DNA of 64,000 nt from Corynebacterium freneyi (GTDB taxonomy: Bacteria; Actinomycetota; Actinomycetes; Mycobacteriales; Mycobacteriaceae), in the NCBI RefSeq assembly GCF_030408835.1, contig NZ_CP047357.1, positions 496,001 through 560,000 of the forward strand. The letters are read 5' to 3'. Under the pieces are notes generated by a model. It was not told the origin of the DNA. It saw only the letters and a program-made list of their open reading frames with translations, and did not search any database. Positions 41,983 through 56,628 of this stretch are shown one piece after another. Made by a program: the position numbers and the translations under genes. The stretch's first letter is position 1. Every line of letters starts with the position of its first letter.

Positions 41983-43170
41983 TCAGCCCAGCACGAGGTG
42001 GACGGTCCGCCATCCTCCGGCGGGACGTTCCTCGCGTTCCGACGGCCGGTCGCCGTCGAGGCGGAACGACCCCGTCGCCCGCAGCAGCGCGGCGATGGCG
42101 CAGCGGATTTCGATGGTGGAGATCAACCGGCCCGGGCACACGTGGGGGCCGGTGCCGTAGACGAGGTTGGCGGCGGCGTTGGCCTCCGGCCGGAATTCGT
42201 CGGGGTCGCCGAAGACGTCCGCGTCGCGATTGGCGGCGATCCAATCCAGCTCGACGCGCGACCCGGACGGGATGACCGCGTCGCCGACCTCGACGTCGGC
42301 GGTGGTGACGCGGCGGTTGGCGGGGAAGGGGTCGTCGATGCGCAGGATCTCGTCGATCGCCGCGTCCAGTTCGGCGGCGTGGGCGGTCTCGTCGGCGGCC
42401 CAGGCGCGCATGCGGTCCTGCAGCTCCGGTCGGGCGGCGAGGTATTGGCCCACCACGCCGATCGACGCCGCGATGGAGCCGAGGTCGCCCGCGGTCCAGT
42501 TGCGCAGGATGGAAACGATCTCCTCGGTCGTCAGGGGACGCGAGCCGCCGGGCGCGGAGGGATCCTCGACCCGGTCCGCCATCAGGCGGGACGTGGGATC
42601 GGCGCCCGCGCCCCCGTCCGGTTCCTTGTCGGCGAGGATCCCGCGGATGATCTCGTCGAACCGGCGGGCGACCTCGGCGGTGCGCCGGCGATCGCCGGAG
42701 CGGGTCGCCGCATGGTTGTCGTCCATCCACCCGGTCAGCGTGGCGTCGAGGGAGTCGGGCCAGCCGAGCCATTCGCACTGGGAGCGCACCGCCACGCGGC
42801 GGCCGAATTCCCGGACCAGCTCCACGCCCGAGGCGGGGCCCTCGACGAGCCGGGCGGCCGCGTCGTCGGCGATGTGCCGGATCGACGGCTCCAGGGGGCG
42901 GATCACGTCATCGGCCAAGTGCCGGTCGATGACCGCCCGGAACCGCCGGTGCTCGTCGCCGTCCATGCCGTTGGGCACGTTGAGGTGCGAGGATGCCGCG
43001 CTGGAGAATCGCCGCGGGTCGCGTGCCGCGGCCTCCACCTCGGTGTGGCCCCGCAGGGCCCATGTGCCGTCCGGCCCGCGCCCGACCGGGCACCGGGACT
43101 CGGGGGGAGGGGGTCGTTCCGGCCATTTCAAAGTCCCTTCATCGATGCGTATTTGACGGTCGGCTCCCAC
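41983..43170 (-). CDS. Cytochrome P450
   Basis: 395 aa. The heme-binding loop is YGTGPHVCPGRL (Cys345) and the ExxR is EILR in DEILRIDDPFPANRR. The I-helix reads NWTAGDLGSIAASIG: the usual acid-Thr pair is replaced by D-L-G-S, a variant seen in some bacterial P450 groups. It is soluble, so it needs a separate ferredoxin and reductase, neither of which is obvious in the window. The start is uncertain: GTG at 43170 overlaps a possible minus-strand -10 (TATCGT) and has no ribosome binding site, and no better start is seen before the P450 fold. It is divergent from a TetR gene that may control it. Substrate unknown. Confidence 0.88.
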   Translation of the reverse strand: MGADRQIRIDEGTLKWPERPPPPESRCPVGRGPDGTWALRGHTEVEAAARDPRRFSSAASSHLNVPNGMDGDEHRRFRAVIDRHLADDVIRPLEPSIRHIADDAAARLVEGPASGVELVREFGRRVAVRSQCEWLGWPDSLDATLTGWMDDNHAATRSGDRRRTAEVARRFDEIIRGILADKEPDGGAGADPTSRLMADRVEDPSAPGGSRPLTTEEIVSILRNWTAGDLGSIAASIGVVGQYLAARPELQDRMRAWAADETAHAAELDAAIDEILRIDDPFPANRRVTTADVEVGDAVIPSGSRVELDWIAANRDADVFGDPDEFRPEANAAANLVYGTGPHVCPGRLISTIEIRCAIAALLRATGSFRLDGDRPSEREERPAGGWRTVHLVLG

Positions 43171-43226: not shown

Positions 43227-43247
43227 GTGGCGTAGGCCACCTATGAT
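43227..43247 (+). promoter_or_regulatory. Palindrome GTGGC-GTAG-GCCAC and -10 of the TetR gene
   Basis: The inverted repeat (43227-43240) sits directly upstream of the -10 TATGAT (43242-43247), in the gap between the divergent P450 and TetR genes. It is a candidate operator for the TetR protein on both promoters. Confidence 0.55.
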
Positions 43248-43254
43248 GACCGGC

Positions 43255-43947
43255 ATGTCACGTCGAGCCGAACTCAGGGAACGGCGGCACGCGGAAATCA
43301 TCGCCGCCGCCGCCGCGATGATCGCCGACCGCGGATTCCACGTCACCAGGCTCGAAGACGTCGGCCAGGTCGTCGGCATCTCCGGGCCGGGCCTGTACCG
43401 GTACGTCACGGGGAAAGACGACATGCTCGCCCAGATTCTGGTCGACATCTCCGTCCGCCTCGTCGACGGCGCCCGGGCCGTGATGGACCGGGCGCGGACC
43501 GAGGAGTGGGAGGCGGACCGCACGTTGCGGGAGCTGCTGAGCTTCCACGTGGAGTTCGCGGTGACCGAACCCGACCGCATTCGAGTGCAGGAACGCGAGA
43601 TCGGCAACCTCGCCCCGCAGCAGCGGGACAAGGTCCGCTCGTTGCAGCGGATGTACATGTCGATGTGGGTCGACGCAGCGCGGCGGGCGAAGCCGGAGCT
43701 GACGGAGTCCGACGCCCGCGTCCGCGTGCAGCTCGCCGCCGGCCTGATCAACTCGTCGCGCCACGTGGTCCGCTGGGCCGGCGCCGATGCCGTGCGCACC
43801 GCTGCGATGGACATGGCCATCGGGGCGGTGGGGTTGCAGAAGGGCGATGACCCGGACATCGGCGACATTGCCCGGGCCTCCCTCGGCGGCGGGCCCCGCA
43901 CAGCGGGAACGCTGGGGGAGGACGACGAGGAGCCCTCGGCGACGTAG
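43255..43947 (+). CDS. TetR family transcriptional regulator
   Basis: 230 aa. The N-terminal HTH is clear: RHAEIIAAAAAMIADRGFHV, TRLEDVGQVVGISGPGLYRY (recognition helix) and VTGKDDML. The ligand domain contains RVQEREIGNLAPQQRDKV, similar to KstR2-like and FadR-like actinobacterial regulators of lipid or steroid catabolism; that subfamily call is tentative. The ATG at 43255 is 7 nt after the -10 (leaderless). It is divergent from the P450 gene and upstream of the dehydrogenase gene at 44105, which has its own promoter. Confidence 0.9.
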   Translation: MSRRAELRERRHAEIIAAAAAMIADRGFHVTRLEDVGQVVGISGPGLYRYVTGKDDMLAQILVDISVRLVDGARAVMDRARTEEWEADRTLRELLSFHVEFAVTEPDRIRVQEREIGNLAPQQRDKVRSLQRMYMSMWVDAARRAKPELTESDARVRVQLAAGLINSSRHVVRWAGADAVRTAAMDMAIGAVGLQKGDDPDIGDIARASLGGGPRTAGTLGEDDEEPSAT

Positions 43948-43993: not shown

Positions 43994-44040
43994 CAGTCTT
44001 GACTGATTGTATTAATGGCGATAGTATGACCCCCGTCACA
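43994..44040 (+). promoter_or_regulatory. Strong promoter of the SDR gene with GlxR/CRP-like site
   Basis: -35 TTGACT (43999-44004), 17-bp spacer, -10 TAGTAT (44022-44027), in an unusually AT-rich pocket. An inverted repeat CAGTC-TT-GACTG (43994-44005) covers the -35. TATGACCCCCGTCACA (44025-44040) covers the -10 end and the start site; its reverse complement fits TGTGA-N6-TCATA, close to the CRP/GlxR consensus TGTGA-N6-TCACA. The position suggests repression. Confidence 0.7.
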
Positions 44041-44104
44041 ATCTCAGTGCGGGTTTGACTGTCCTTCCCGCCCGCACGATCCACGATCGCAGGAGGCGAC
44101 TTCC

Positions 44105-45031
44105 ATGGCCGAACCGCAGATTCCGTCCCGTCCCGCATTGCCCACCGAACCTTCCCCCGCCATCGACGAGCTTCGCGCGGGCACCGCGCAGCTGCCCCTC
44201 CGGCAGCCCGCGGCGGATGCCTTCGCCGGGAAAGTCCTCCTGATGTCCGGTGGCTCGCGCGGCATCGGCCTCGAGATCGCGCTCGCCGCGGCCCGCCACG
44301 GCGCGGACATCGCCATCATGGCCAAGACCGCCGAGCCGGACCCCCGCATCCCCGGCACCATCCACACCGCCGCCGAAGCCATCCGCGAGGCCGGTGGCCG
44401 CGTGCTGCCCTACGTCGGCGACATTCGTTCCGACGACGACGTCAAGGGTTTCGTGGAAGCGACCATCGCGGAGTTCGGGCGCATCGACATGGTGGTCAAC
44501 AACGCCAGCGCGATCAATCTCAGCCCCACGCCGGTGCTGCCGCTCAAGCGCTACGACCTCATGATGGACATCAACTCCCGCGGCACGTTCTCCCTGGTCC
44601 AGGCTGCACTGCCGCACCTGGCCAAGTCGGACAACCCCCACGTGCTCACGCTGTCGCCGCCGGTGAACCTGGAGCCCGGGTGGCTGGGCAACTTCCCCGC
44701 CTACTCTTTGAGCAAGTTCGGCATGACCATCCTGACCCTCGGCTGGGCGCACGAATTCGGCGGCGCCGTGTCCGCCAACTGCCTGTGGCCGGAAACGACC
44801 ATCGCCACCGCAGCGGTGGCCAACACCCAGGGCCTGGGCGGCGACGAAGCGATCCGGCACTCCCGCACGCCGCAGATCATGGCTGACGCGGCCGTCGCCA
44901 TCCTCGCCTCCGAGCGGGGCACGGTCAACGGCCACACCCTCGTCGACGCCGACGTGCTGCGTTCGGCCGGCGTCGAGGATCTGTCCGGCTACGGCGGCGA
45001 AGAGCCCCTGAACCTCGACCTTTTCCTCTAG
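44105..45031 (+). CDS. Short-chain dehydrogenase, HSDL2/AtuB-like
   Basis: 308 aa; the ATG is preceded by GGAGG. The Rossmann motif GGSRGIGLEIALAAA, NNASAI and the catalytic Tyr-Lys in AYSLSKFGM are present. The sequence AIMAKTAEPDPRIPGTIHTA, the SPPVNLEPGW segment and NCLWPETTI are those of the HSDL2 group. Bacterial members of this group include the citronellol/citronellal dehydrogenases AtuB and AtuG of acyclic terpene utilisation. It lacks the SCP2 domain of animal HSDL2. A role in oxidising a branched or terpenoid alcohol or aldehyde is inferred. It is transcribed alone from the promoter at 43999 and ended by the hairpin at 45158. Confidence 0.85.
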   Translation: MAEPQIPSRPALPTEPSPAIDELRAGTAQLPLRQPAADAFAGKVLLMSGGSRGIGLEIALAAARHGADIAIMAKTAEPDPRIPGTIHTAAEAIREAGGRVLPYVGDIRSDDDVKGFVEATIAEFGRIDMVVNNASAINLSPTPVLPLKRYDLMMDINSRGTFSLVQAALPHLAKSDNPHVLTLSPPVNLEPGWLGNFPAYSLSKFGMTILTLGWAHEFGGAVSANCLWPETTIATAAVANTQGLGGDEAIRHSRTPQIMADAAVAILASERGTVNGHTLVDADVLRSAGVEDLSGYGGEEPLNLDLFL

Positions 45032-45157
45032 TTCCTCTAGGCCCCACCGCCCCCGGGCAACGGAGACCTCCCCTCGGCTCCGCCGACGCACCCCTGAACC
45101 GCGTCGGCGGAGTCGGCGTATTTCCCGCCCAGGAGAATGCGACTGACAATCACTGAA

Positions 45158-45183
45158 AAAACCACCGGAGCTCCGGTGGTTTT
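45158..45183. terminator. Bidirectional terminator between the SDR and PucR genes
   Basis: Perfect 26-nt palindrome: AAAACCACCGGAG followed directly by CTCCGGTGGTTTT, giving a T-run in both directions. Confidence 0.9.
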
Positions 45184-45237
45184 CGCATTTCCTTCCCCCT
45201 CGGCGGAGGCTCCGGGGAGGCTCCGTTTTCCGGAAAC

Positions 45238-46467
45238 TCAGTCTTGGGCGAGCACCTTCGGCCCGTACCAGTGCGCCAATTCCAGGGCGACGCGGAACTC
45301 CGGAGTCGCGATGGTCTCCGCATCGGCGACCTCCCGGACCCGGTCGAGGCGGTACTTGACGGTGTTGCGATGCACGAGCAACGACTCTGCGGCGCCGCCC
45401 ACGCCGGAGGCGAGGTACGCCCGCACCGTCTGCCTGAGCACGTCGCGGTCCGCATCGTCGTGGGCCAGGGGACCCAGCGTCGCGCGGACGAAATCCGCGG
45501 CGTCGGCGAGCCTGTCGACGAACGCGGCCGCGGTCGCCGTTCCCGGTTCCCGGTCGTCGACGACGGCGACGTCGAATGCGATGGCACCGAACAGCGACGA
45601 GCATCGCTGAGCGCGACGGTGGCTCAACCGGAATCCCTCGATGCCGGGGGACGACGGGCCCACGGCGATGCGCAGTCCGGGCTGCTCGGGAACCTTCGGG
45701 GCGCCCGGGCCGGGCTGCGCCGACGGCACCGTGCACCAGGCCCAGGCTTCCGTGCTGCCGGGGACGACGATGAGCGGAGCGGAATGCGAACCAACCGCGT
45801 CGGCGATGGTTCGGGACGCGGACTTGACCAGTACCGGATCGATCTCGCCGTCGCCGTTCGCGGAGGGGTGGAAAACGAGGGCCATGTGTCGGCCGGCCAT
45901 GGGGTAACCGCCGATGTCGTCGGCGGCGTGCGCCGCCCCGAGAACGTCGAGGACCTTCCTCAGGTGTTCCGCGTTGCCGGGTATCGGCAGTGCGGTGGCC
46001 TCGGTTTCGTAGGCCCGGGTGACGTCGGCCGTCATCGCGGTGATGAACGAATCGGTCAACCGGCGCAGGTGGCCGAGGAAGCTGAACAGTTCGTCGGACG
46101 GCAGCGGCTGCGCGGCGTCGTGGACGATCTGCAGAAGCTCCCGTTCCACCGCATTGTGGGACTGGTGGTACTGGAGGAGCAGGGTCGACAGGGGAATGCC
46201 CTGCCGGGCGAGCAGTCGGGCGTAGTCGAGCGCGGCCTTCGGGGCGCTCGGCGTCCAGGGGTCTTCGCCGGTGCTGAGCAGCTCGCCGAAGCGCCCGATG
46301 ACCGCCCGGATGCTTGCGCGGAGCGGTTCGCGCACCGCGGCCCAGTCGGAATCCGACGGGGGGAGCGTGGCGACGATGAGCCGATCGGCCGTGTCCTCGG
46401 CGAAGGTCGCGTCCGTCAGCTCCGTCACGGCATCACCGACGATGCGCAGCATCTCGTCCATCGTCAT
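45238..46467 (-). CDS. PucR family transcriptional regulator
   Basis: 409 aa from ATG at 46467, which overlaps the stop of the CrtI-like gene by 4 nt (ATGA). The C-terminal PucR HTH (HTH_30) is clear: LLVHRNTVKYRLDRVREV near residue 375. The middle GGDEF-like/CdaR region spans about 160-300, and the N-terminal RsbRD-like helices contain LLLQYHQSHNAVEREL. PucR proteins usually activate catabolic genes in response to a substrate. As the last gene of the ligase operon it is the likely pathway-specific regulator; its binding site is not proven. Confidence 0.9.
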   Translation of the reverse strand: MTMDEMLRIVGDAVTELTDATFAEDTADRLIVATLPPSDSDWAAVREPLRASIRAVIGRFGELLSTGEDPWTPSAPKAALDYARLLARQGIPLSTLLLQYHQSHNAVERELLQIVHDAAQPLPSDELFSFLGHLRRLTDSFITAMTADVTRAYETEATALPIPGNAEHLRKVLDVLGAAHAADDIGGYPMAGRHMALVFHPSANGDGEIDPVLVKSASRTIADAVGSHSAPLIVVPGSTEAWAWCTVPSAQPGPGAPKVPEQPGLRIAVGPSSPGIEGFRLSHRRAQRCSSLFGAIAFDVAVVDDREPGTATAAAFVDRLADAADFVRATLGPLAHDDADRDVLRQTVRAYLASGVGGAAESLLVHRNTVKYRLDRVREVADAETIATPEFRVALELAHWYGPKVLAQD

Positions 46468-47909
46468 CGCCCGGTCTTCCGCACCCGCCCTCCGGCGAGC
46501 TCGGACAGCGCCCGGGCCGCGGCGTTGGCGCCGCACATGCCGTGCACGCCGGCGCCGGGCGGGGTCGACGCCGAGCACAGGTAGGCGCCGGGGAGCCCCG
46601 CGTGGTACGGGTCCGGCGACAGCACCGGGCGGGCGAGTAGCTGGGTGACGCCGGAATGGCCGCCGAGGATGTCCCCGCCGACGTAGTTGGCGTTGTAGTT
46701 CTCCAAGTCGCCGGTGGACATCGAGTTACGCGACACGATGATGTCGCGGAATCCGGGGGCGAAGCGTTCGATCTGGGCGATGATCGCTTCGGTGGCGTCG
46801 CCGCGGAATCCCTGCGGGACGTGGGCGTAACTCCACAGGGGGTTGAGCGTTCCCGACGATCGGGACGGGTCGGCCAGGTACTGCTGACCGACCAGCACGA
46901 AGGGCTGGTCCGGCATGACGCCGCCGGCGCTCATCTTCTCCGCGGCGGCGACCTCCTCGGCGGTTCCGCCCAGGTGCACCGTGCCGGCGCGACGGCAATC
47001 CGCGTTGGTCCACGGAACGTCGCCGTCGATGACGAAGTCCACCTTGAACGCCGCCATGCCGTGGCGGTATTTCCCGTAGGCCCGGCGTTGACGGCGGGGC
47101 ACCCGGTTGCGGCCGAGAATGGACAGGGCGTTGCGGGGGCTGACGTCGAGCATGACGACGTCGCTGTCGCCCAGCTCGTCGATCGATCGGACGGTGCGCC
47201 CGGTTTCGATCCGGCCGCCGCGACTCTCCAGTTCCGCGACCATGGCCTCGGCGATCGCCCCCGAACCGCCGACGGCGACGGGCCATCCCCGCGCATGGGC
47301 GGACGCGGTCAGCAGCATGCCCACCGATGAACTCATCGGGGTGTCCAGCCGACTCATGGCGTGGGCGGCGACGCCGGTGAACAGTGCGCGGGCCTGGGGC
47401 GTGCGCCACCGGCGCCAGGACATCGACGCCGGCAGGGCCGCATTGGCCCCGAACAAACCGAACAACACGGGGTGCCGGGGCAGGTGCACGGGCGAGTCGA
47501 GGGCATCGGAGGCCAAATCGGCGAAGTTGGCGGCGAAGGGACCGAACGTCCGCTTCCACATCGGACCATCGGCCCCGAGCCCTGCGGCCGTTGCGTCGAT
47601 GTCGCGGTACAGGACTCCGGCGGTGCCGTCGTCAAGCGGATGCGCGAGATCGACCTCCGGCCACGCGAACTCCAGACCGTGGGCGCCGAGATTCGCGCCC
47701 GTGAAGAAAGGACTGGCCACCGCCAGGGGATGCACGGCCGAACACACGTCGGAAACGACCCCCGCCCCGGTCACGTCCGCGCTGCGCATCCCCCCGCCCG
47801 GCGTGGACGCCGCCTCCAACACGGTGACGTCCACGCCCGCGCGCGCCAGCGTGATGGCCGCGGCCAACCCATTGGGGCCGCTGCCGACGACTGTGGCGGT
47901 GGGGGTCAT
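46464..47909 (-). CDS. CrtI/phytoene desaturase-like FAD-dependent oxidoreductase
   Basis: 481 aa. The N-terminal FAD fold is VVGSGPNGLAAAITLARAG with VLEAASTPGGGMRS, and the C-terminal motif is YLCSASTPPGAGVHGMCG, typical of the NAD(P)/FAD-dependent oxidoreductases related to phytoene desaturases and all-trans-retinol saturases. No carotenoid genes (crtB, crtE) are in the window, so a desaturase or saturase acting on another isoprenoid or acyl chain is possible; the substrate cannot be read. The start directly abuts the DUF3556 stop (TAG then ATG) and the stop overlaps the PucR start, so the gene sits in a tight operon. Confidence 0.85.
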   Translation of the reverse strand: MTPTATVVGSGPNGLAAAITLARAGVDVTVLEAASTPGGGMRSADVTGAGVVSDVCSAVHPLAVASPFFTGANLGAHGLEFAWPEVDLAHPLDDGTAGVLYRDIDATAAGLGADGPMWKRTFGPFAANFADLASDALDSPVHLPRHPVLFGLFGANAALPASMSWRRWRTPQARALFTGVAAHAMSRLDTPMSSSVGMLLTASAHARGWPVAVGGSGAIAEAMVAELESRGGRIETGRTVRSIDELGDSDVVMLDVSPRNALSILGRNRVPRRQRRAYGKYRHGMAAFKVDFVIDGDVPWTNADCRRAGTVHLGGTAEEVAAAEKMSAGGVMPDQPFVLVGQQYLADPSRSSGTLNPLWSYAHVPQGFRGDATEAIIAQIERFAPGFRDIIVSRNSMSTGDLENYNANYVGGDILGGHSGVTQLLARPVLSPDPYHAGLPGAYLCSASTPPGAGVHGMCGANAAARALSELAGGRVRKTGR

Positions 47910-49718
47910 CTAGATCCTTTCCTTTCGAGAGACGCGCTCCCGCTCGGAAACCAGGGCCCGGTTGCGGTACGGGGCATCGGGGGAGAACGGAATGGGGCCG
48001 TCGGGCAACCACGGCTGCGTCGACACCGCGTCCCGCACCCGGAACGTGCCCTCCTCGATGACTCCCAGAGCCAAATCGACGACCTTGTACCGCTGGGTGG
48101 CGCGGTGGATCGGCTGGGATTCGACGCACACCGCGACGACCTCGCCGGGGGCGTAGTTCATGTGCTTTTGCACAGTATGCATGAAGTGGGGACCGTGCAG
48201 GTGGCCGTCGCCGAAGTTCCAGCCCAAGGCCCAACCGCAGATGTTCTCGCCCTCGCGCAGCGTGTACTTCTCGAGGTCGTCGCCAAGCTCGCGGACGAGC
48301 AGCGACAGCATGGCGCGACCCTGCGAATGCATGGAGCGGAACGCGATCGCCTTCTCCAGCAGCTTGACCGCGGCCTCCTCGCCGTACAGCTTGGCCAGAA
48401 CGTCCTCCTGGTTGCCGGTCGCGGCGGGGAACTCGTCGTACAGCCGGCGCAGGGCGTTCGGCCCGAAGGCCCACATCGTCGTCGCCCAGTTGCCCGAGTA
48501 CTGGCGCATCGCGAACAGGAACGACACGATGTCCGGGCGCAGGTTGCCCAGGATGGGCAGGGGCAGCACCACCAGCGCGATGAACAGCGCGACCCACGGC
48601 GACGACAGATCACCGACGCCGAACCCGTCCCAGGCGGGGAACCCGAAGAACAGCAACGGGGTGATGACGAGGAAGTGGATGTTCCACTCGATCGGCACCG
48701 CCAGCGGAATCGTCGACGTGATGAAGACGTGCATGCCCATGATCATCACCGCGCCGATGGCGGCGAGTACCGGATCGACGGCGAAGAGCAGCAGCAGCGG
48801 CGCGACGATCTCTACGACCGTGCCCAGGCCGTGGCCGATCAGGTGCGACACCCGCGAGGGGTTCAGGTCGTTGCGGGCGTCGCGGTAGAACAGTCGGTTG
48901 ATCTTCGGGAACACCATGTAGGGGGTGCTCGACATCATCGGGCCGATGACGTACGAGAAGTGCGGACCGATCTTCGCGATGGCGGCGCCCATCCACACCA
49001 CGACGATGAGGCACTTGGCGGCGATCATGAAGTTGACGGGGCCGAGGACCACGCCGAACAGCAGCAGCGGCAGGTACTGGTCGGCGCGGGCGGCCAGGAA
49101 CGGAACCTGGTCGCGTGCGCCCAGCAGCACCAGCGCCACCATCGGCATGGCGAAGGCGAGCGTGGGCAGGACGCCGTCGTCGGCGTCGGGCAGCACCGCC
49201 GTCAGCTCGGCGGATTCCACGCCCTTCATGGCCAGGCCGGCGACGAGGGTCGCAAGCACGGCCAGGTAGAGGATCACGTCGACGATGGTCCGGCGATCAC
49301 CGGAGGTCAGCGGAATCTTGCCGCCCCACGGTGGGCGCCGCACCGTGCCGGGGCGCACCCAGTGGAACACGCCGGCCATCGGGGGCCAGAAGTGGAACAT
49401 CGCGGGACCGGAGGCGGCGCCGATGCTCAGCGCCTCCCAGAGGATCGCCCAGAGCAGGAGCTTCTGGTAGACGATCGGCTCGGCCCACCAGTCGTGGTAG
49501 TCCCACAGGGACCCGAGGCCCGAGGAGGCGACGGCGATCCAGCCGCCGAGGAGGAGCCAGGCGGCGATCTTGATCACGTAGAACAGCGGGGCCGCCGACG
49601 GCGAGCCGAGGCCGCGTTCGGCCCAGTCGGTGGCCTGGAGGCGGATGCGCTGGAGGAGGGGCAGGCGCTTGTACTCGTCGAGGGCGACGTCGATGAGTTC
49701 CGGTTTCATCAGGGACAT
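47910..49718 (-). CDS. DUF3556 transmembrane protein
   Basis: 602 aa. Roughly ten to twelve membrane helices cover residues 45-430 (starting FYVIKIAAWLLLGGWIAVAS), with aromatic- and His-rich loops such as YHDWWAEPIVYQ and AMFHFWPPMAGVFHW. The C-terminal soluble part (about 430-602) includes GHLHGPHFMHTVQKHMNY, dense in His, and a hydrophilic end. This is the actinobacterial DUF3556 family, whose function is unknown; the His clusters would suit a membrane metal-dependent oxidase or lipid-modifying enzyme (inference). It lies 34 nt after the ligase gene and is joined to the CrtI-like gene without a gap. Confidence 0.82.
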   Translation of the reverse strand: MSLMKPELIDVALDEYKRLPLLQRIRLQATDWAERGLGSPSAAPLFYVIKIAAWLLLGGWIAVASSGLGSLWDYHDWWAEPIVYQKLLLWAILWEALSIGAASGPAMFHFWPPMAGVFHWVRPGTVRRPPWGGKIPLTSGDRRTIVDVILYLAVLATLVAGLAMKGVESAELTAVLPDADDGVLPTLAFAMPMVALVLLGARDQVPFLAARADQYLPLLLFGVVLGPVNFMIAAKCLIVVVWMGAAIAKIGPHFSYVIGPMMSSTPYMVFPKINRLFYRDARNDLNPSRVSHLIGHGLGTVVEIVAPLLLLFAVDPVLAAIGAVMIMGMHVFITSTIPLAVPIEWNIHFLVITPLLFFGFPAWDGFGVGDLSSPWVALFIALVVLPLPILGNLRPDIVSFLFAMRQYSGNWATTMWAFGPNALRRLYDEFPAATGNQEDVLAKLYGEEAAVKLLEKAIAFRSMHSQGRAMLSLLVRELGDDLEKYTLREGENICGWALGWNFGDGHLHGPHFMHTVQKHMNYAPGEVVAVCVESQPIHRATQRYKVVDLALGVIEEGTFRVRDAVSTQPWLPDGPIPFSPDAPYRNRALVSERERVSRKERI

Positions 49719-49752
49719 GTGCGTCTCCTTTGGTGTCGGGTGGCGGCGGGCG

Positions 49753-51237
49753 TCAGCGCGCGACTGCGGCCGCGGCCATTTCCGTCAGGGCGATCTTGTC
49801 GACCTTGCCGACGGGGTTGCGGGGCAGGTCGGGCAGTACGTGGATCGACTCGGGCAGCTTGACCTTGGCCAGTCGGGCGGAGATGTGGGCGCGCAGGTCG
49901 TCGAGGTCCGGGGTGCCGGTGACGTAGGCGATGGGGATTTCGTTGAGGACCGGGTGGGGTGCGGCGACGACGGCGGCTTCGGCGATGTCGCCGTGGCTGG
50001 TCAGCGCGGCTTCGATTTCCGAGGGGTAGAGGTTCTCGCCGCCGCGGATGATGAGGTGCTTGATCCGGTCGACGATGCTGAGGAACCCGTCGTCGTCGAT
50101 GATTCCGACGTCTCCGGTGCGGAGCCATCCGTCGCGGAAGGACGCGTCGGTGTCTTCCCGTCGGTTGAGGTATCCGCGCATGACGTTGGGGCCCTTGATG
50201 AGCACTTCGCCGCGCACGCCGGCGGGCGCGAAGCCTCCGTTTTCGTCCGCGATGCGGACTTCCTGCCTCGGCAGGGGCTTGCCGACGGAGCCGGAACGCG
50301 GTTCGTCCGTGGGGCGCATGACGGTGCTGACGCACGTGCCCTCGGTGAGGCCGTATCCCGTGAGCACCCGGACCCGGAATCGCTCTTCGAAGGCCAGCAG
50401 CATTTCGATGCTCGCCGGCGCCGCTCCGCAGATGGCGAACCGGAGGCTGGAGAAGTCCGCGTCGACGTCGTCCGGCAGTGCCAGCAGGTAGGAGTAGATC
50501 GCCGGCACCGCGGAGAAGTAGGTCGGCTGCGCCGTCTGCACCGCCTCGACGAAGGTGGCCGGGTCGAAGCGCGGTTCGATGGTGATGCGCCCGCCGCCGC
50601 GGAACGGCGCGAGGAATCCCGCGAGCAGCGCGTTGGAGTGGAACAGCGGCAGGATCATCAGCGCGTGTTCGTCGCCGGTCATGCCGACGACTTCGTTCAT
50701 GTCGAGCGACATCGCGTCGACGTTGGCGTGGTCGAGCAGGACGCCCTTGGGCCGTCCGGTGGATCCGGAGGTGTAGATGATGAACGCGATGTCGTCGCCG
50801 GCGGTGCTCGGGGCGGGGAGGTCGGCGCCCTCGGGGATGCTGGTGCGCAGCTGCGACACCGGAAGCACGACGGCGCCGGGGAAGCGTGCTTCGGGGTCGT
50901 CGGCGGCGATGTCGTCTTCGGCGACGACGAGCCGCGCCGAGCTGTCCTCCACCTGGTAGGAGGATTCGTTCGCGGTGAACGTGGGGTTCAGCGGCGTGAC
51001 TGCCGCTCCGATCCGCCATGCCGCGCAGATGACCGTGAGCAGCTCGATGCGGTTGGACAGGAACGTGGCCACGACGTCTCCTCGCTTCACGCCGTTGTCG
51101 AGGAGCTGGGTGGCGACCGCGTCGACCTGTTCCGCAAATGCTGCACCGGTGATTGATTGGCGCTTGTCGGTGAGGCGGATTCGCGTGTCGGTGGCGTGCG
51201 ACGGGTGCCAGGGGAGGTACTGGGCGATGTCGGTCAT
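49753..51237 (-). CDS. Acyl-CoA ligase (AMP-forming)
   Basis: 494 aa, ANL superfamily. Motifs: AFIIYTSGSTGRPKGV (P-loop), TGYGLTEGTCVS, DGWLRTGDVGIID, IKHLIIRGGENLYPSEIE and the catalytic Lys in NPVGKVDKI. It activates a carboxylic acid with ATP and CoA. A class of medium, branched or aromatic acid ligases fits; the specific acid is unknown. AtuH, the ligase of acyclic terpene utilisation, belongs to the same family. First gene of the ligase-DUF3556-CrtI-PucR operon. Confidence 0.92.
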   Translation of the reverse strand: MTDIAQYLPWHPSHATDTRIRLTDKRQSITGAAFAEQVDAVATQLLDNGVKRGDVVATFLSNRIELLTVICAAWRIGAAVTPLNPTFTANESSYQVEDSSARLVVAEDDIAADDPEARFPGAVVLPVSQLRTSIPEGADLPAPSTAGDDIAFIIYTSGSTGRPKGVLLDHANVDAMSLDMNEVVGMTGDEHALMILPLFHSNALLAGFLAPFRGGGRITIEPRFDPATFVEAVQTAQPTYFSAVPAIYSYLLALPDDVDADFSSLRFAICGAAPASIEMLLAFEERFRVRVLTGYGLTEGTCVSTVMRPTDEPRSGSVGKPLPRQEVRIADENGGFAPAGVRGEVLIKGPNVMRGYLNRREDTDASFRDGWLRTGDVGIIDDDGFLSIVDRIKHLIIRGGENLYPSEIEAALTSHGDIAEAAVVAAPHPVLNEIPIAYVTGTPDLDDLRAHISARLAKVKLPESIHVLPDLPRNPVGKVDKIALTEMAAAAVAR

Positions 51238-51248
51238 GAAAACTCCAA

Positions 51249-51288
51249 TGTGACGTGGGTCATATCCGATGGGTGATGATGGATTATA
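51249..51288 (-). promoter_or_regulatory. Promoter of the ligase operon with GlxR/CRP-like site
   Basis: Minus-strand -10 TATAAT (51283-51288), a perfect consensus with a weak -35. The start site should be near 51276. TGTGACGTGGGTCATA (51249-51264) lies just downstream, about +12 to +27. It differs at one base from the reverse complement of the SDR-promoter site, and fits TGTGA-N6-TCATA. Confidence 0.7.
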
Positions 51289-51327
51289 TGCCCTGGTTGG
51301 AGCCGTGAGTTAGTGCGTCCGGGTTAA

Positions 51328-51359
51328 AGTTTTTCGATAAAAACTGTGCATGATGCACA
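51328..51359. promoter_or_regulatory. Two adjoining palindromes in the divergent control region
   Basis: AGTTTTT-CGAT-AAAAACT (51328-51345) runs directly into TGTGCAT-G-ATGCACA (51345-51359). Both have perfect 7-bp arms. They lie upstream of the ligase promoter (about -52 to -83) and well upstream of DUF6230, good activator or repressor positions for PucR or a TetR protein. Confidence 0.65.
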
Positions 51360-51421
51360 AGCGGGTTCGGCATCGCCCTTTTCGTCGGCACGCGGGAGGA
51401 TGGGCGCGGAAAAAATCCGGC

Positions 51422-51485
51422 ACAAGTGCTTGTTAAACGGCTCGTGGGGTGCTAGTTTCGCCCCAAAAGTGTGAGGCACATCATA
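51422..51485 (+). promoter_or_regulatory. Promoter of DUF6230-DUF6114 with palindrome and GlxR/CRP-like site
   Basis: -35 TTGTTA (51430-51435), 17-bp spacer, -10 TAGTTT (51453-51458). ACAAG-TG-CTTGT (51422-51433) overlaps the -35; its core CAAGNNCTTG resembles KstR2-type operators. TGTGAGGCACATCATA (51470-51485) lies at about +5 to +20 and fits TGTGA-N6-TCATA. Confidence 0.65.
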
Positions 51486-51547
51486 AGATGGCGAGCTATG
51501 GGTCGCCGATTCGACATGGCCCGCTCGGTCGGGCCGGAGGGAAGAAC

Positions 51548-52123
51548 ATGGGACGGATCAATCCACTGCGGGCCGTGCTCGGCGTCGGCGTCGGGCTGGC
51601 CCTTGCCGGGGGCACCGGCGTCGCCGTGGCGCAGGGCGGGCTGACGGCCAACCTCGCGCTGTCCGGGACGATCTTCAATGTGTCCATGGGCAACCTCGAC
51701 GGCGAAGATTTCTCGCTCTTCGTCGGAGGCGAGGAGCTGCCCGACGGCACGATCCCGGCGTCGAAGCTGCGTTTCGGCACCGCCTCCGCATCGGATCTGT
51801 GCGTTTCGGCGCCCCTGCGGGGTCTCCCCGGCGTCGGCGACGCGATCTTCGTGCTCAAGGTGCCGGGGGAAAACACGGTGCAGGCCACCGACCTCGTCGT
51901 GGGGGCGACGGTCCTGCGCGGCAACCTCGTCCTGGACAACCCGCAGATCGGCATCGACGCCAGCCAGGTCGACGGGGCGGCTCCCGCCAATGCGTGGGGC
52001 ATCGCCTCCCACGGCGTGTCGGTGCAGGCGCAGGAGATCCGGGCTTCCTCGGTCGGGGCCGGGAGCCTGACCGCGTCCGGTTTCGACATCGGAGTGAAGA
52101 AGGGGCACGAAGGTGGCTGCTGA
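51548..52123 (+). CDS. DUF6230 family secreted or membrane-associated protein
   Basis: 191 aa from ATG at 51548, preceded by GGAGGGAAG. The N-terminal hydrophobic segment VLGVGVGLALAGGTGVAVAQ may be a signal peptide or anchor. The rest is a beta-rich domain (LTANLALSGTIFNVSMGNLDGEDFSLFV in part, then ATVLRGNLVLDNPQIGIDAS). DUF6230 proteins occur in actinobacteria next to DUF6114 proteins, and some are annotated as cholesterol esterase without experimental basis. The last 11 nt overlap the DUF6114 start. Function unknown. Confidence 0.75.
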   Translation: MGRINPLRAVLGVGVGLALAGGTGVAVAQGGLTANLALSGTIFNVSMGNLDGEDFSLFVGGEELPDGTIPASKLRFGTASASDLCVSAPLRGLPGVGDAIFVLKVPGENTVQATDLVVGATVLRGNLVLDNPQIGIDASQVDGAAPANAWGIASHGVSVQAQEIRASSVGAGSLTASGFDIGVKKGHEGGC

Positions 52124-53165
52124 CGACGATTCCGTACACGAGGAAAGCCACCCGGTCGTGCACGAGGAAAGCCACTCGGTCGAGGATGCGCCCGCCGACC
52201 GACGCCGCCGATTCGCCGCGTGGCGATCCGACCGGCCGTTCCTGCCGGGCCTGCTCGTGATCATCTCGGGGGTCGTCATCATGATCCCGGCCTATTTGAC
52301 CTTCAAGGTCGCGGACATCCTGGTGATGATCTCGACGGTGTCGGGCGTTTCCACGCTGGTCATCGGCACCATTCTCGTTTTGCTGGGCATCACGGCCTGG
52401 ATGCGGCCGGCGGTGCACCTCCACCTCGGGGTGCTGGCGATCATCTTCGCCGTCATCGCCCTGCCGACGTCGAACATCGGCGGCTTCGTCGTGGGCACCC
52501 TGTTCGGCGTCATCGGCGGCGGACTGTTGCTGGCGTGGGAGGACGCGGAACCGGTGAACCGGCGGGGCAAGCACCGGAAGAAGAGAACCGCGCGGTCCGG
52601 TGCCGCGGTGGCGGCTTCGCTGGCGGTCGCGTCGACGGCGGTGGTCGCCGTCGCGACCGGTCCGAAGGCGCGGGCCGAGCCGAGTGAGCTCCTGCTTCCC
52701 GCGGGCACGACGGGCGTGGTGATGGCCGAAGAGGTCGTCGTCTCGGGCGATGTTCGGGTCACCGTGGACACGGTCGAGACCACCGCGGGGCCGGTCGACG
52801 TCATCGAGCTGCGCGCCGAGCGGGTCGAGGCCGACGGACTCGCCGTCGACATCCCCGGCCCCCTCGGACAGGGCGTACTTCGCACCCCCTCCGACGCGAA
52901 GACCGTGCTGACCGGGGCCCCCGTCATTTTGCGCACCGCGTCCCTTTCCGCGATCCCGGCGGTGGAGGGGGCGTCGACGGTGCCGGTCAGCGTCGACGTC
53001 TCGGGCGTTCCCGAGCCCGGCCTGGCGGCGCTGGGCCTGCCGCTGATTCCGCTGCCGGGCGAGATCATGGACCGGGTGGCCCTGCGGAACGTGCGCATGG
53101 ATGTCGTGGGCCTCTACGGACTCGGCGGCGCGCTCGACGTCACCGGAATAGATCTGCGAACCTGA
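52113..53165 (+). CDS. DUF6114 membrane protein with extracytoplasmic domain
   Basis: 350 aa, GTG start with GAAGGGGCACGAAG upstream, overlapping DUF6230. A charged N-terminus with two HEESH units leads to four transmembrane helices (about residues 43-145), starting SDRPFLPGLLVIISGVVIMI, the DUF6114 core. A fifth hydrophobic segment (AAVAASLAVASTAVVAVATG) is followed by a beta-rich C-terminal domain of about 160 residues that resembles the DUF6230 domain (DRVALRNVRMDVVGLYGLGG), presumably outside the cell. The two proteins probably form a membrane complex. Function unknown. Confidence 0.75.
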   Translation: MAADDDSVHEESHPVVHEESHSVEDAPADRRRRFAAWRSDRPFLPGLLVIISGVVIMIPAYLTFKVADILVMISTVSGVSTLVIGTILVLLGITAWMRPAVHLHLGVLAIIFAVIALPTSNIGGFVVGTLFGVIGGGLLLAWEDAEPVNRRGKHRKKRTARSGAAVAASLAVASTAVVAVATGPKARAEPSELLLPAGTTGVVMAEEVVVSGDVRVTVDTVETTAGPVDVIELRAERVEADGLAVDIPGPLGQGVLRTPSDAKTVLTGAPVILRTASLSAIPAVEGASTVPVSVDVSGVPEPGLAALGLPLIPLPGEIMDRVALRNVRMDVVGLYGLGGALDVTGIDLRT

Positions 53166-53194
53166 CCGGCCCACCGCCGACGCGTGACGACGAA

Positions 53195-53225
53195 GCCCCT
53201 CCCCGGATGATTTTCGGGGAGGGGC
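53195..53225. terminator. Terminator between DUF6114 and the MpaB-like gene
   Basis: GCCCCTCCCCG (53195-53205) pairs with CGGGGAGGGGC (53215-53225), loop GATGATTTT. It serves both convergent genes. Confidence 0.88.
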
Positions 53226-53283
53226 CTTTCGCCGTGCTCGGCGCCCGCCGTCAAGAGAAGGCGGTGACGGCGCGCCGGGCGGA

Positions 53284-54147
53284 TCAGCGGGGGTTCTCGT
53301 GGCGGCGGAACGCGCGTTCGGCGATGGGGACCATGCGGACCCGGCGGGGCAGCACGGTGAAGATGCCGCGGACGGCGCGGGAGAACAAGGTGAACCGGAT
53401 GGCGTCGGAACGCGTCCACGACCAGCCGAGCTTGCGGCGCAGGGTTTCGGGCAGCAGTCCCACGGCGACCCAGAAGAGCAGCGCCCTCATGCCGGGGGCG
53501 ATCGGGCGCCAGGCCCACTCGGGCAGCCACGGCAGCGGGCTGTCCAGGGTGAGGGCGCGGACGATGCGGGAGCGGTCGACGGTTTCCTGTCGGTCCAGCT
53601 GCCCGTCGACCACGCGGTCGAAGTACTCCTGGTACTCCGCGTAGGTGCGGGGCGCGCCTTCGGGCTCGGAGACGCCGTAGAGCCGGTACCAGGCCCGGCT
53701 TTCCTGGAACAGGCGCTCCTTTTCTTCGTCGGTCATGGGCGGCATGAAGTTGCCGGCCAGCGCATACGGCATGGCGGCGAACGTCGCATGGGCCCAGTAG
53801 TAGACCGCCGGGTCGAGCGAGTGGTACCGCGAACCGTCGTTGCGGTGCCCCTTGATGTCCCGGTGGTAGTCGCGGATCATGGCGCCGACTTCTTCGCCTT
53901 CGTAGACCGTGCGGATGATCGGGAACGCGGAGCGCAGCAGTCGCGCCACTTCGTTGTCGAAGACGTTGGAGTGTTGGACGAGGGCCGTGGAGACGTCCTC
54001 GTGGGTGATCTGGAGCAGGCCCGCGTACAGGGCGGCGAACGTCGACCGCCAGTCGCCGAAGCGCCGCCACAGGACGGTGTCGGGGCCGAGCTGCGGCAGG
54101 TCGGTGTCCTGCAGGGCGAGGTCGCGGTCGCTGAGGTGGTTGGTCAT
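53284..54147 (-). CDS. MpaB-like oxygenase family protein (DUF2236)
   Basis: 287 aa from ATG at 54147, overlapping the FAD protein stop by 4 nt (ATGA). The family's conserved pieces are present: TVLWRRFGDWRSTFAALYAG, MIRDYHRDIKG, DPAVYYWAHATF and WYRLYGVSEPEGAP. DUF2236/MpaB proteins are heme-type oxygenases; the fungal member MpaB cleaves a farnesyl side chain, and latex-clearing rubber oxygenase Lcp belongs to the same superfamily. Oxidative attack on an isoprenoid chain is therefore an attractive but unproven role. Two C-terminal hydrophobic segments may tether it to the membrane. Confidence 0.82.
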   Translation of the reverse strand: MTNHLSDRDLALQDTDLPQLGPDTVLWRRFGDWRSTFAALYAGLLQITHEDVSTALVQHSNVFDNEVARLLRSAFPIIRTVYEGEEVGAMIRDYHRDIKGHRNDGSRYHSLDPAVYYWAHATFAAMPYALAGNFMPPMTDEEKERLFQESRAWYRLYGVSEPEGAPRTYAEYQEYFDRVVDGQLDRQETVDRSRIVRALTLDSPLPWLPEWAWRPIAPGMRALLFWVAVGLLPETLRRKLGWSWTRSDAIRFTLFSRAVRGIFTVLPRRVRMVPIAERAFRRHENPR

Positions 54148-54905
54148 CGGTTTTCCAATCTGGCTTCGGGAATCGGTGAGGCGGCGGGTGCGAACGAGTG
54201 GGACGCGGCGTCGATGGTTCCGAGGTCCCGGATCTGGTGGCGGCGATCCGGCGGGCTCGCGTGCCAGTTGGAGGCGCGCACCGTGAAGGCGCCGGGGCCC
54301 CGGATCTCCAGGGCCCGGATGTAGCGGCGGGCGTGGTCCGCTCGAGCTTCGGCGATGTCCAGCGGGCGGCGGGTGCTGAGTCCCGTCACCGGGGCATCGA
54401 CGAACAGGAGGTTGGGTGCCCCCACGACCTCGATGGCCCTGTGGAGCCGGGGCTCGGCGTCGAGGATTCGGCCCGAGCCCGGATCGATGTCGAGGACGGT
54501 GTCGCCGCCGGTGGCCCGGATGAGTACGTCGGCGCGCACGACGTCGTCCCCGGCGGGCGTGACGACGGCGACCCGCCACTGTCCGGTGTCGTGGTCGAAG
54601 GCGGCGGATCGCGCTTCGGTCCGCAACCGGACGTCGGCTCCGGCGGCGTCCAGGGCTTCCCGCAGATGGGCGCGGAAGCCGGCGGCGGTGCCGTCGACGG
54701 CCTTGCGGTCGAGGTACGGCGTGCGGAAACGCAGCCGCTTCGACGGCGCCGGGCCGCCCGGACGTGCGGCGGCGCCGCCGATCTCGTCGGTAGCCTCGAC
54801 GAGCGTTACGTCGAATCCGGAGAAAGCGCAGTCCGCCGCTGCCGCGCATCCGGCCGGGCCCGCTCCGATGACGGCGACCGTGGGCCGTCGATAGGGTTTG
54901 TGCAT
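54144..54905 (-). CDS. Short FAD-binding oxidoreductase (incomplete flavin monooxygenase-like)
   Basis: 253 aa. The FAD motif VAVIGAGPAGCAAAADCAF with VEATDEIGGAA is intact, and a second ATGG-type motif (RATGGDTVL) follows. The protein ends soon after, whereas flavin-containing monooxygenases are 450-550 aa and also have an NADPH fold, which is missing here. No frameshifted remainder is visible downstream, because the MpaB-like gene begins within its stop codon. It may be a specialised partner reductase or a degraded monooxygenase. First gene of a two-gene operon. Confidence 0.7.
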   Translation of the reverse strand: MHKPYRRPTVAVIGAGPAGCAAAADCAFSGFDVTLVEATDEIGGAAARPGGPAPSKRLRFRTPYLDRKAVDGTAAGFRAHLREALDAAGADVRLRTEARSAAFDHDTGQWRVAVVTPAGDDVVRADVLIRATGGDTVLDIDPGSGRILDAEPRLHRAIEVVGAPNLLFVDAPVTGLSTRRPLDIAEARADHARRYIRALEIRGPGAFTVRASNWHASPPDRRHQIRDLGTIDAASHSFAPAASPIPEARLENR

Positions 54906-55232
54906 TCCGCTGCCTCCCTGGAAGTGATCTGCGTCATATTTGCGGTCAGTTTAGGCGCGGGCGATTGTTTTGGCCAGAGTTTTCATGCACATCGTTGGGG
55001 GCGTTTTTTGTTTCGAATGCACAATCACGCCCCTGTCATGCCGAAATGTCGAATCATGGTCGTGTTTGCGGGGAGAATCCTGGCGGCGGCCGAAGCGATC
55101 ATGCATGATTGGATTTGCTCGGGCCGGGGTCGTCCACGTGGGCCGGTGGAGTCCGAGCCAGTCGGACGAGTCGCATCGAGTCCGCGCGCACCCCGCCCGA
55201 AATTCGACGGAGCACCCGTGAAAGGGGTAAAA
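54906..55232. promoter_or_regulatory. Divergent control region with GlxR/CRP-like site and palindrome
   Basis: 327 nt between the FAD protein and the PaaG-like gene. On the minus strand a -10 TAAACT (54948-54953) serves the FAD gene, with AGTGATCTGCGTCATA (54923-54938) at about +3 to +18 (10 of 12 arm bases match the ligase-operon site). Also present: GGGGCGT...ACGCCCC arms around a 24-nt loop (near 55000-55040) and a perfect palindrome ATCATGCATGAT (55098-55109). No clear -10 is seen for the rightward gene. Confidence 0.6.
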
Positions 55233-56006
55233 GTGCAGGTCAACAATGAAAATCCGCCGGTGCTCGTGGAGCACGGCGATGGCATCACGCGAATCACGCT
55301 GAATCGACCGGAGCGGTTGAACGCCGTGGATCTGGGGCTGCTCGACGCGCTCGCCGGGGCGCTGGCCGACGCCGCCGAGGAGGGAAGCCGCGTGGCGGTC
55401 ATCGGGGGCGCCGGCCCCGCGCTGTGCGTGGGAGCCGATCTCGCCGCCGGCGCATCGGGCAAGCAGGACCCGGCGGCCGTGATGGAAGCCGCCGCGCGGG
55501 TGATCGGGGCGATTCTCGAGGCACCCATGCCGGTGGTGTGCGCGGCGACGGGCCCGTCCGCGGGCTTCGGGGCGTCGCTGGCCCTCGCATCCGACATCAC
55601 CGTGATGGCCGACGACGCCACGTTGATCTTCCCGTTCGCGCATCTCGGTCTCGTCCCCGACGGCGGCGTCAGCCACCTGCTGCCGGCTCTGGTGGGCCGT
55701 CAGGTCGCGTCGCGGATGCTCATGCTCGGCGAGACCGTCGACGCCGCCCAGGCGGCCAGGCTCGGCATCGTCGCCGAGTCCGTCCCGACCGGCGAGCTCG
55801 GCGCCAGGATCGACGCGATCGCATCGACCCTCGCCGCCGCCCCGGCCCGCGGCATGACCGAAATGAAGAAGACCCTCGTCGCGGGGGTTCGCGACGAGGT
55901 GTCGGATGCGCTGAAGCGGGAGGGCGCCGCCCAGACCGAGCTGCTGGCGTCCCCGGAATTCCGCCGCGCCGCGGCCGCCTTCGTCGCCCGCGCCAAGCGC
56001 GGCTGA
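55233..56006 (+). CDS. Enoyl-CoA hydratase/isomerase family protein, PaaG-like
   Basis: 257 aa from GTG at 55233, chosen because AAAGGGG lies 5 nt upstream; GTG at 55218 would add five residues. Crotonase fold: ITLNRPERLNAVD, ALCVGADLAAGA (oxyanion hole), GFGASLALASDITVMAD and HLGLVPDGGVSHLLPALVG. The two catalytic Glu of hydratases are absent (GASL and FPFAH in their places). The Asp in LVPDGG matches PaaG-type isomerases that shift or isomerise the double bond of enoyl-CoA. It stands alone, facing the TetR gene. Confidence 0.85.
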   Translation: MQVNNENPPVLVEHGDGITRITLNRPERLNAVDLGLLDALAGALADAAEEGSRVAVIGGAGPALCVGADLAAGASGKQDPAAVMEAAARVIGAILEAPMPVVCAATGPSAGFGASLALASDITVMADDATLIFPFAHLGLVPDGGVSHLLPALVGRQVASRMLMLGETVDAAQAARLGIVAESVPTGELGARIDAIASTLAAAPARGMTEMKKTLVAGVRDEVSDALKREGAAQTELLASPEFRRAAAAFVARAKRG

Positions 56007-56025: not shown

Positions 56026-56628
56026 TCAGTCGAGGCGCTTGATCTGGCCGAGAACCAGGGAAAGCGCCTCGACGGCGCGCTCTTTTTGCTCCGTGGCATC
56101 GACGAGCACGGACGACAGACCCAGCCCCCGGGCGACGTCGAAAAGCATGGTGAGGAACCTGCGCGTGGGCTTGTCGGACAAGTCCGCCTTCAACGCTTCG
56201 GCGGTGAGCTCGAAAATCTCGCGATTGAGCCGGGACTCGGCGGGCAGAATGATCTTCGCCAGATTCGGGTCGCTCGCCGCGGCCGACCACACGTGCGTCG
56301 CCGCATGGAAGAGCTCGCCGGTGAAGAAGTCGATGACCAGCCGGATGACCTCCTCGACCGGCGCACCGTTTTCTCCGACGTCCAATGCGGCGATCGCCTC
56401 GCGGAACTGCTCGGTGCGCTCCTCCGAAATCTGGCCCAGCGCCTGCTCGATCAACGTCTCGCGGGTCTGGAAATGATGCTGGGCCGCGCCACGCGACACC
56501 CCGGCCTTCTCCGCGACCAGGCTCACCGTGGTCGCCGGCACGCCCCTCGTGGCGAGGGTGTGCACCGTCGCCTCGACGAGCTTGCGGTGCGTTTCCTTGC
56601 TTCGGTCCTGCTTCGGGGTGCGCGGCAT
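56026..56628 (-). CDS. TetR family transcriptional regulator
   Basis: 200 aa. HTH: RKLVEATVHTLATRGVPATT, VSLVAEKAGVSRGAAQHHFQ (recognition helix) and TRETLIEQAL. The ligand domain is all-helical. It is the last gene of the leftward operon starting at the AtuA-like gene, 24 nt after the hydratase stop, and so probably reports on the acyl-CoA intermediates of that pathway and represses it. No operator is proven; ATCATGCATGAT at 55098 is one candidate. Confidence 0.9.
   Translation of the reverse strand: MPRTPKQDRSKETHRKLVEATVHTLATRGVPATTVSLVAEKAGVSRGAAQHHFQTRETLIEQALGQISEERTEQFREAIAALDVGENGAPVEEVIRLVIDFFTGELFHAATHVWSAAASDPNLAKIILPAESRLNREIFELTAEALKADLSDKPTRRFLTMLFDVARGLGLSSVLVDATEQKERAVEALSLVLGQIKRLD

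Follow-up and report, generated by a model that had tools for sequence, protein, structure and literature searches.

Closest described systems and the present locus

In Corynebacterium glutamicum, the regulator GlxR recognizes the motif TGTGA-N6-TCACA at intergenic promoter sites, and cyclic adenosine monophosphate (cAMP) makes it bind its consensus site about 100 times more tightly (PMC7026483). At the gabTDP operon of that species, inverted repeats for a PucR-type regulator (GabR) occur together with a GlxR site downstream of the transcription start, which was read as repression, and a 17-bp inverted repeat was given for another PucR-type regulator, PutR (PMC7652997). The closest metabolic counterpart of the locus described here is the Atu/Liu pathway of Pseudomonas. 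We analyzed a stretch of 64,000 nucleotides of Corynebacterium freneyi (NZ_CP047357.1, genome positions 496001-560000; hereafter the window). A sequence-only reading of it had noticed four 16-bp CRP/GlxR-like promoter sites and proposed that one cAMP-responsive repressor, or a local regulator, silences four operons together. We found that the sites fit the CRP/GlxR motif of the genome and that GlxR is the best reading of the proposed repressor. The silencing itself is something we infer, and equal placement of the sites at the four promoters was not supported.

The locus resembles the C. glutamicum GlxR regulon in its orthologous regulator, in the motif and in the intergenic promoter sites, and SdhC and Rpf-like genes lie beside such sites here. 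It differs in its targets, which belong to a probable isoprenoid-catabolic island that few species of the genus have, and in the TATGA half of the sites first noticed. Its parallels with gabTDP are a PucR-type gene near a catabolic operon, inverted repeats that could be local operators and a GlxR site predicted to lie at the start or beyond it. However, the substrate genes are others, the PucR gene ends the operon here and the operator is a predicted one. Like the Pseudomonas pathway, the island combines in one operon AtuA, a carboxylase with a pocket like that of geranyl-CoA carboxylase (GCC), an acyl-CoA dehydrogenase, an enoyl-CoA hydratase and a TetR regulator, and an operon for a carboxylase of the methylcrotonyl-CoA carboxylase (MCC) type lies nearby. 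Unlike that pathway, it is actinobacterial, has CRP-type promoter sites and adds genes for short-chain dehydrogenase/reductase (SDR), DUF3556, CrtI-like, MpaB/Lcp-type and DUF6230/DUF6114 proteins.

What we propose extends a known control system, cAMP-GlxR, to new targets and is not a new kind of control. It would tie a rare corynebacterial island, probably isoprenoid-catabolic, to carbon control by cAMP-GlxR; it names the promoters, offers a candidate for a local operator and points to a class of substrates that can be tested. Our literature search found no paper joining GlxR with acyclic terpene. If the proposal is true, dual control by GlxR and PucR reaches beyond gabTDP, and the little-studied DUF3556, DUF6230, DUF6114 and MpaB-type families gain a shared regulatory context.

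Four promoter sites and the CRP/GlxR motif of the genome

All four 16-mers were found where the sequence-only reading had put them, and each is intergenic by our gene calls (scores are from the matrix described below):

44025 to 44040, plus strand: GlxR-type site (TATGACCCCCGTCACA) of the SDR promoter, 15.0 bits, covering the end of a predicted -10 element, TAGTAT (44022-44027)
51249 to 51264, minus strand: GlxR-type site at the promoter of the operon for acyl-CoA ligase, DUF3556, CrtI-like and PucR-type proteins (the ligase operon), 17.1 bits, with a predicted start based on TATAAT
51470 to 51485, plus strand: GlxR-type site of the DUF6230-DUF6114 promoter, 17.15 bits
54923 to 54938, minus strand: GlxR-type site at the promoter of the flavin adenine dinucleotide (FAD) protein and MpaB genes, 14.5 bits, the weakest of the four

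Once oriented, three of the sites match TGTGA-N6-TCATA exactly and the site at 54923 has one mismatch; the sites at 44025 and 51249 differ by a single base, as had been claimed. Compared with the canonical TGTGA-N6-TCACA, the site at 54923 has two mismatches and each of the others has one. With at most one mismatch on either strand, TGTGA-N6-TCATA occurs four times in the window, against a mean of 0.3 and a maximum of 2 in 20 first-order Markov sequences. Across the genome (2,880,330 bp), it has 26 matches at this stringency, against six for the reversed pattern. Of its 24 distinct places, our own gene calls put 18 in intergenic DNA, which makes up 13% of a 400-kb sample. Only four exact matches exist in the genome, three of them in this locus. 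The four-site observation is confirmed, and the sites are unlikely to have arisen by chance. The fourth exact match lies outside the island, at genome position 695359 (L052:10359-10374), 25 bp ahead of a TetR-family gene.

The canonical motif, with at most one mismatch, occurs at 34 places in the genome, compared with three for the reversed control. Among the 32 places judged from the first gene calls, 31 are intergenic; two more (560199 and 560280) are intergenic on the joined sequence, which brings the count to 33 of 34. Genes for SdhC and for an Rpf-like protein, the latter a match below the NCBIfam curated cut-off, adjoin canonical sites, and rpf2 is a published GlxR target (PMC3917453). 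A profile search for CRP-type helix-turn-helix proteins gave one protein above the cut-off and five weaker ones below it. The alignment of that single protein with C. glutamicum GlxR (4byy, 414 bits) spans both proteins from end to end, and the recognition-helix stretch is identical; judged by this alignment, the protein is a GlxR orthologue.

Sequence comparison indicates that TGTGA-N6-TCATA is a local variant of the CRP/GlxR motif of the genome, TGTGA-N6-TCACA. The TATGA half is enriched in the island, where three of the five strict sites have it, against one of 29 elsewhere (P = 0.006). It is mostly not kept in orthologous promoters, and among seven ligase promoters of other genomes only that of genome G055 has a TAT half (TATGG). 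A separate motif TGTGA-N6-TCATA was rejected for this reason, despite the local enrichment. The pattern noticed earlier thus stands as a real local variant but not as a general consensus.

Conservation in other genomes

We compared 242 genomes of the genus and other genomes of the order. DUF3556 relatives were found in nine of the 242, our own included (E ≤ 1e-3, some of them partial or weak), and in three of the other order genomes searched; one named relative, Pseudonocardia bannensis, came from a contig search with DUF3556. A GlxR-type site was present at the ligase promoter in all seven other genomes in which the ligase was found (G243, G215, G162, G024, G194, G163 and G055), a count that leaves out a second G162 copy as well as G003, G047 and P. 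bannensis, whose stretches showed no ligase. In each of the seven, the match ranked first or second in the entire stretch of 12-38 kb and started no more than 70 bp from the ligase start, which was approximated from tblastn. The ligase promoters of G194 and G163 have perfect consensus sites. In G162, the ligase-DUF3556-CrtI region appears at both contig ends, and one DUF3556 copy matches in several pieces.

G243 has nearly the same gene set as our genome. Its DUF6230 promoter carries a site of 20.8 bits, and its divergent SDR/AtuA region carries two sites at 16-17 bits. Among three other SDR orthologues, two have sites in a shared SDR/AtuA region. AtuA itself was found in 12 of the 242 genomes (E ≤ 1e-40), and its promoter has strong sites in three of them (G000, G024 and G243), our own included, and so in two of the 11 others. 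Conservation at orthologous promoters is therefore mixed, with sites in 7/7 for the ligase, 1/1 for DUF6230, 2/3 for SDR, 2/11 for AtuA and 0/1 for FAD-MpaB. The site is kept at all the ligase promoters but at only 3 of 12 AtuA promoters; in these genomes it firmly characterizes the ligase operon and the island linked to it, but not Atu operons at large. On the same count, we rejected the idea that GlxR controls Atu operons as a rule. The AtuA-promoter site pairs of G024, G243 and G000 are spaced 74, 74 and 81 bp, and two of the three spacings are near seven helical turns.

Extent of the sites across the island

A symmetric matrix was built from 29 sites outside the island, one of which (695359) has a TCATA half; the five strict sites of the island were excluded. 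The scan covered 84 kb, consisting of the window and the next 20 kb. Ranks 1 to 7 fell at 64199, 51470, 51249, 44025, 54923, 64280 and 68696, all of them intergenic and all in one island. All four promoters of the earlier list carry sites, but the list was incomplete: the promoter of AtuA and a divergent ligase gene at 64341, and that of a second carboxylase operon at 68802, have them as well. The former holds a pair:

64199 and 64280 (continued coordinates, beyond the window): two GlxR-type sites of the AtuA/divergent-ligase promoter, matrix ranks 1 and 6

Counted by promoter-type gaps, a score of 13 bits is reached in five of the seven gaps of the island, in three of 160 in the 400-kb spread sample and in none of 30 in the rest of the 84 kb (island versus sample, Fisher P = 1e-6). 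The two island gaps without a site are short gaps within the AtuA operon. The sequence-only reading had named an equal density of such sites in coding DNA as the outcome that would speak against it. We found a higher density in intergenic DNA: in the sample, three positions exceed 13 bits among 53,619 intergenic bases and two among 346,381 coding bases. The rarity of matrix matches in coding DNA, the fit to the CRP/GlxR motif of the genome, the presence of a GlxR orthologue and the conservation of the ligase site support the earlier suggestion that the sites are of the GlxR type.

Local regulators

Two inverted repeats might serve a local regulator:

51344 to 51360: 17-bp inverted repeat CTGTGCATGATGCACAA, TTGTGC-N5-GCACAA with one mismatch, upstream of the ligase promoter; candidate PucR operator
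55008 to 55024: weaker copy with two mismatches in the intergenic region between the FAD protein and enoyl-CoA hydratase genes; may be a chance match

This pattern was derived by visual inspection of the same promoters. Similar repeats occur upstream of the ligase or DUF3556 in G194, G163 and G215 (one mismatch each) and in G055 (exact), and copies with two mismatches lie near the ligase/DUF3556 promoters of G243, G162 and P. bannensis; G024 has none. Copies with two mismatches also sit in coding DNA of the window. With at most two mismatches, the repeat shows no excess genome-wide (51 matches versus 167 for the reversed control), so the argument for it comes from position and conservation alone. 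Judged in this way, it would be a better candidate for the PucR operator than the CRP-like sites.

PucR-type genes adjoin the ligase operon in all eight genomes that have the ligase-promoter site, our own included, although in G162 (L057) the gene is split over two reading frames. Because these genes travel with the ligase operon, co-occurrence cannot set PucR aside as the binder of the sites. For the TetR protein at 56026-56628, G215 gave no match, and the matches in G162 and G055 are only weak (E about 2e-5 to 3e-5); all three genomes have the ligase-promoter site. G194 and G003 have this TetR and AtuA, yet no strong AtuA site. As a common repressor, this TetR was rejected because three genomes have the ligase-promoter site without an orthologue of it. 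The other TetR, at 43243-43947, has one relative, in G243 (38%), in a search limited to the stretches compared. Regarding the local regulator that had been offered as the alternative to a global one, the TetR of the AtuA operon is thus unlikely to be the binder, and PucR is a possible binder of low probability.

Position of the sites and the likely sign of control

Transcription starts were predicted, and the predictions are weak for most promoters. In our genome, the site centre lies at -1.5 from the best predicted start of SDR, at +19.5 for the ligase and at +10.5 for the FAD protein. At the DUF6230 promoter, the best match of the promoter scan was poor (centre at -13.5), and a TTGTTA-17-TAGTTT pair picked by eye would place the site just downstream of +1. 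A stricter promoter scan found only the SDR promoter among the four, with 2 promoter-like matches in the region against 0.6 expected. The ligase site is about 12 bp from the start codon. In relatives, its offset is -29.5 in G215, -27.5 in G163, +4.5 in G162 and -1.5 in G024, and G194 and G055 gave no usable prediction. The earlier statement that the sites cover the starts or lie just downstream of them therefore agrees roughly with the predictions for SDR, the ligase and the FAD protein, but the same placement at all four promoters is not established. Variable placement over the core promoter fits an occluding repressor better than an activator, though some of the promoters may be activated. 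A location on the predicted start or beyond it suits repression, as has been proposed for gabTDP in C. glutamicum (PMC7652997).

Our favored explanation, which we regard as probable but well short of secure, is that GlxR, presumably responding to cAMP, binds and represses the island through these sites, while local regulators with presumed operators add control by a presumed substrate. The four sites, the two at the AtuA/ligase divergent promoter and the weaker pair before the second carboxylase operon would be its putative operators. Bound across the starts or just downstream of them, GlxR-cAMP would block RNA polymerase, and one global signal of carbon status would hold down an island of about 26 kb for acyclic isoprenoid breakdown. 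Substrate-specific control might come from PucR acting on the 17-bp inverted repeat that precedes the ligase promoter, and the TetR of the AtuA operon probably acts at its own promoter. The computed parts of this explanation are the motif, its intergenic placement, the fit to the CRP-type motif of the genome, the GlxR orthologue, the retention of the site at ligase promoters and the GCC-like pocket region of the carboxylase.

Several observations weigh against this explanation, whose operators are predicted ones. G243 and G024 each have a site pair in the SDR/AtuA region, and one member of each pair precedes a weakly predicted start by about 37-56 bp. Activator positions fall within that range, and these upstream sites lowered our confidence slightly. 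In our genome, too, the predicted starts are mostly weak and the offsets vary between promoters. One half (TATGA) of each of the four sites is off consensus, which should weaken binding. In favor of the explanation, GlxR works through an imperfect site at ldhA, a gene that it activates (PMC7999487). With up to two mismatches, the class to which the 54923 site belongs, the genome has 265 matches and the control 138, so that about half of such sites are noise. Upstream of the FAD gene of G243, the one orthologue examined, nothing exceeds 10.5 bits, and nine of the 12 AtuA genomes have no strong site, their best intergenic score being 12.2 bits (G133) and the G235 match being partial. As for the matrix, its 13-bit threshold was set after the scores had been seen, rank 8 in the 84 kb is a coding position (33944, 13.3 bits) above that threshold, and the sample contains the two coding positions mentioned above. 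When the strict sites (at most one mismatch to the canonical motif) were merged per promoter, the 28 loci showed no significant clustering on the chromosome (at least three in 20.4 kb, P = 0.34); clustering is visible only by the matrix, counted per promoter gap.

Among other explanations, it is possible, although we consider it unlikely, that the sites belong to GlxR but GlxR activates some or all of the promoters, whose true starts would then lie elsewhere. The weak start predictions, the ligase sites of G215 and G163, whose centers precede the best predicted start by about 28-30 bp, the upstream SDR/AtuA sites of G243 and G024, and the activation of ldhA by GlxR (PMC7999487) all point this way. 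However, none of the centers in our own genome (-1.5, +19.5, the poor -13.5 and +10.5) is near -41 or -61, only about 12 bp lie between the ligase site and its start codon, and the variation in offset fits an occluding repressor better. A local regulator, most likely the PucR of the operon, might instead read the CRP-like palindromes without any involvement of GlxR, which seems to us quite unlikely. In its favor are the PucR-domain genes beside every ligase operon with a site, the strong AtuA sites only in the three genomes where AtuA adjoins or shares a contig with SDR and the ligase operon, and the local enrichment of the TATGA half. Nevertheless, the same motif occurs at 29 strict places outside the island, the perfect consensus at the G194 and G163 ligase promoters should attract GlxR anyway, the TATGA half is mostly lost in orthologues and the 17-bp repeat is the better PucR candidate. 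We give little credence to a related idea, in which PucR arrived with the island, recognizes the GlxR-like palindrome bearing a TATGA half and competes there with GlxR; each new host would then have received the island together with its own operators for carbon repression.

The sites might also be chance matches without function, as the excess of only 265 over 138 in the loose class of the 54923 site would allow. This is very improbable considering the intergenic placement, the matrix ranks and the conservation at the ligase promoter. Least credible of all is a common repressor of the TetR type. Both TetR genes adjoin the island, and TetR operators are short palindromes, but the TetR at 56026-56628 is absent in G215 and weak in G162 and G055, all with the ligase site, G194 and G003 combine it with AtuA but have no strong AtuA site, and the TetR at 43243-43947 has, within the stretches compared, its one relative in G243.

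Gene content and likely pathway

The genes of the island within the window are as follows:

44105 to 45031, plus strand: SDR oxidoreductase (NCBIfam PRK08278.1 subfamily)
45238 to 46467, minus strand: PucR-type regulator (GGDEF_2 and HTH_30), last gene of the ligase operon
46464 to 47909, minus strand: CrtI/amine-oxidase-like FAD oxidoreductase
47910 to 49718, minus strand: DUF3556 membrane protein
49753 to 51237, minus strand: acyl-CoA ligase (AMP-binding), first gene of the operon
51548 to 52123, plus strand: DUF6230 protein
52113 to 53165, plus strand: DUF6114 protein
53284 to 54147, minus strand: MpaB/Lcp-type oxygenase domain protein
54144 to 54905, minus strand: FAD-dependent oxidoreductase
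55233 to 56006, plus strand: enoyl-CoA hydratase family protein
56026 to 56628, minus strand: TetR regulator, end of the AtuA operon
56653 to 57435, minus strand: enoyl-CoA hydratase
57485 to 58660, minus strand: acyl-CoA dehydrogenase
58751 to 60775, minus strand: biotin carboxylase/biotin carrier alpha subunit
60789 to 62384, minus strand: carboxyltransferase beta subunit with a GCC-type pocket region
62381 to 64000, minus strand: AtuA family protein, whose gene continues to 64120, past the window end

We take the TetR, the enoyl-CoA hydratase, the acyl-CoA dehydrogenase and the alpha subunit to be in AtuR-, AtuE-, AtuD- and AtuF-like positions, respectively, with names from the Pseudomonas pathway. 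Against the REHF/RDHF of MCC beta subunits, the carboxyltransferase shows a gap of three residues. A 90-residue piece of its pocket gave its best match, an ungapped one, with GCC (5ikl, 5ikl_B), and Gly-Gly stands at the place of Gly162; the place of Phe191 was set by counting. Substrate use by MCC and GCC has been related to Phe191 plus a three-residue insertion in the former and Gly162 in the latter (PMC4673880). Over the full length, MCC beta scores higher (568 bits) than GCC beta (485 bits), which is sixth in the list behind MCC and others; this weighs against the GCC assignment. From the gene set of the AtuA operon and the GCC-like pocket region, the island is most likely for acyclic isoprenoid (Atu-type) catabolism of a presumed substrate of this class. 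The MpaB/Lcp-type oxygenase and the CrtI-like oxidoreductase may prepare larger isoprenoids for the pathway. Among solved structures, no sequence relative of the MpaB-type protein was found at E ≤ 1e-3.

The second carboxylase (68802) keeps the three-residue insertion and matches AccD1 and MCC. Its operon (L050:4802-13682) encodes an MCC-type carboxylase, acyl-CoA dehydrogenase, MaoC, HpcH/HpaI, ligase and CoA transferase proteins, and resembles a leucine/isovalerate operon. Two weak GlxR-type sites lie upstream of it, at 13.7 and 11.4 bits. The cytochrome P450 match at 41983-43038 of the window is confined to the final part of the Pfam model (324-431 of 462).

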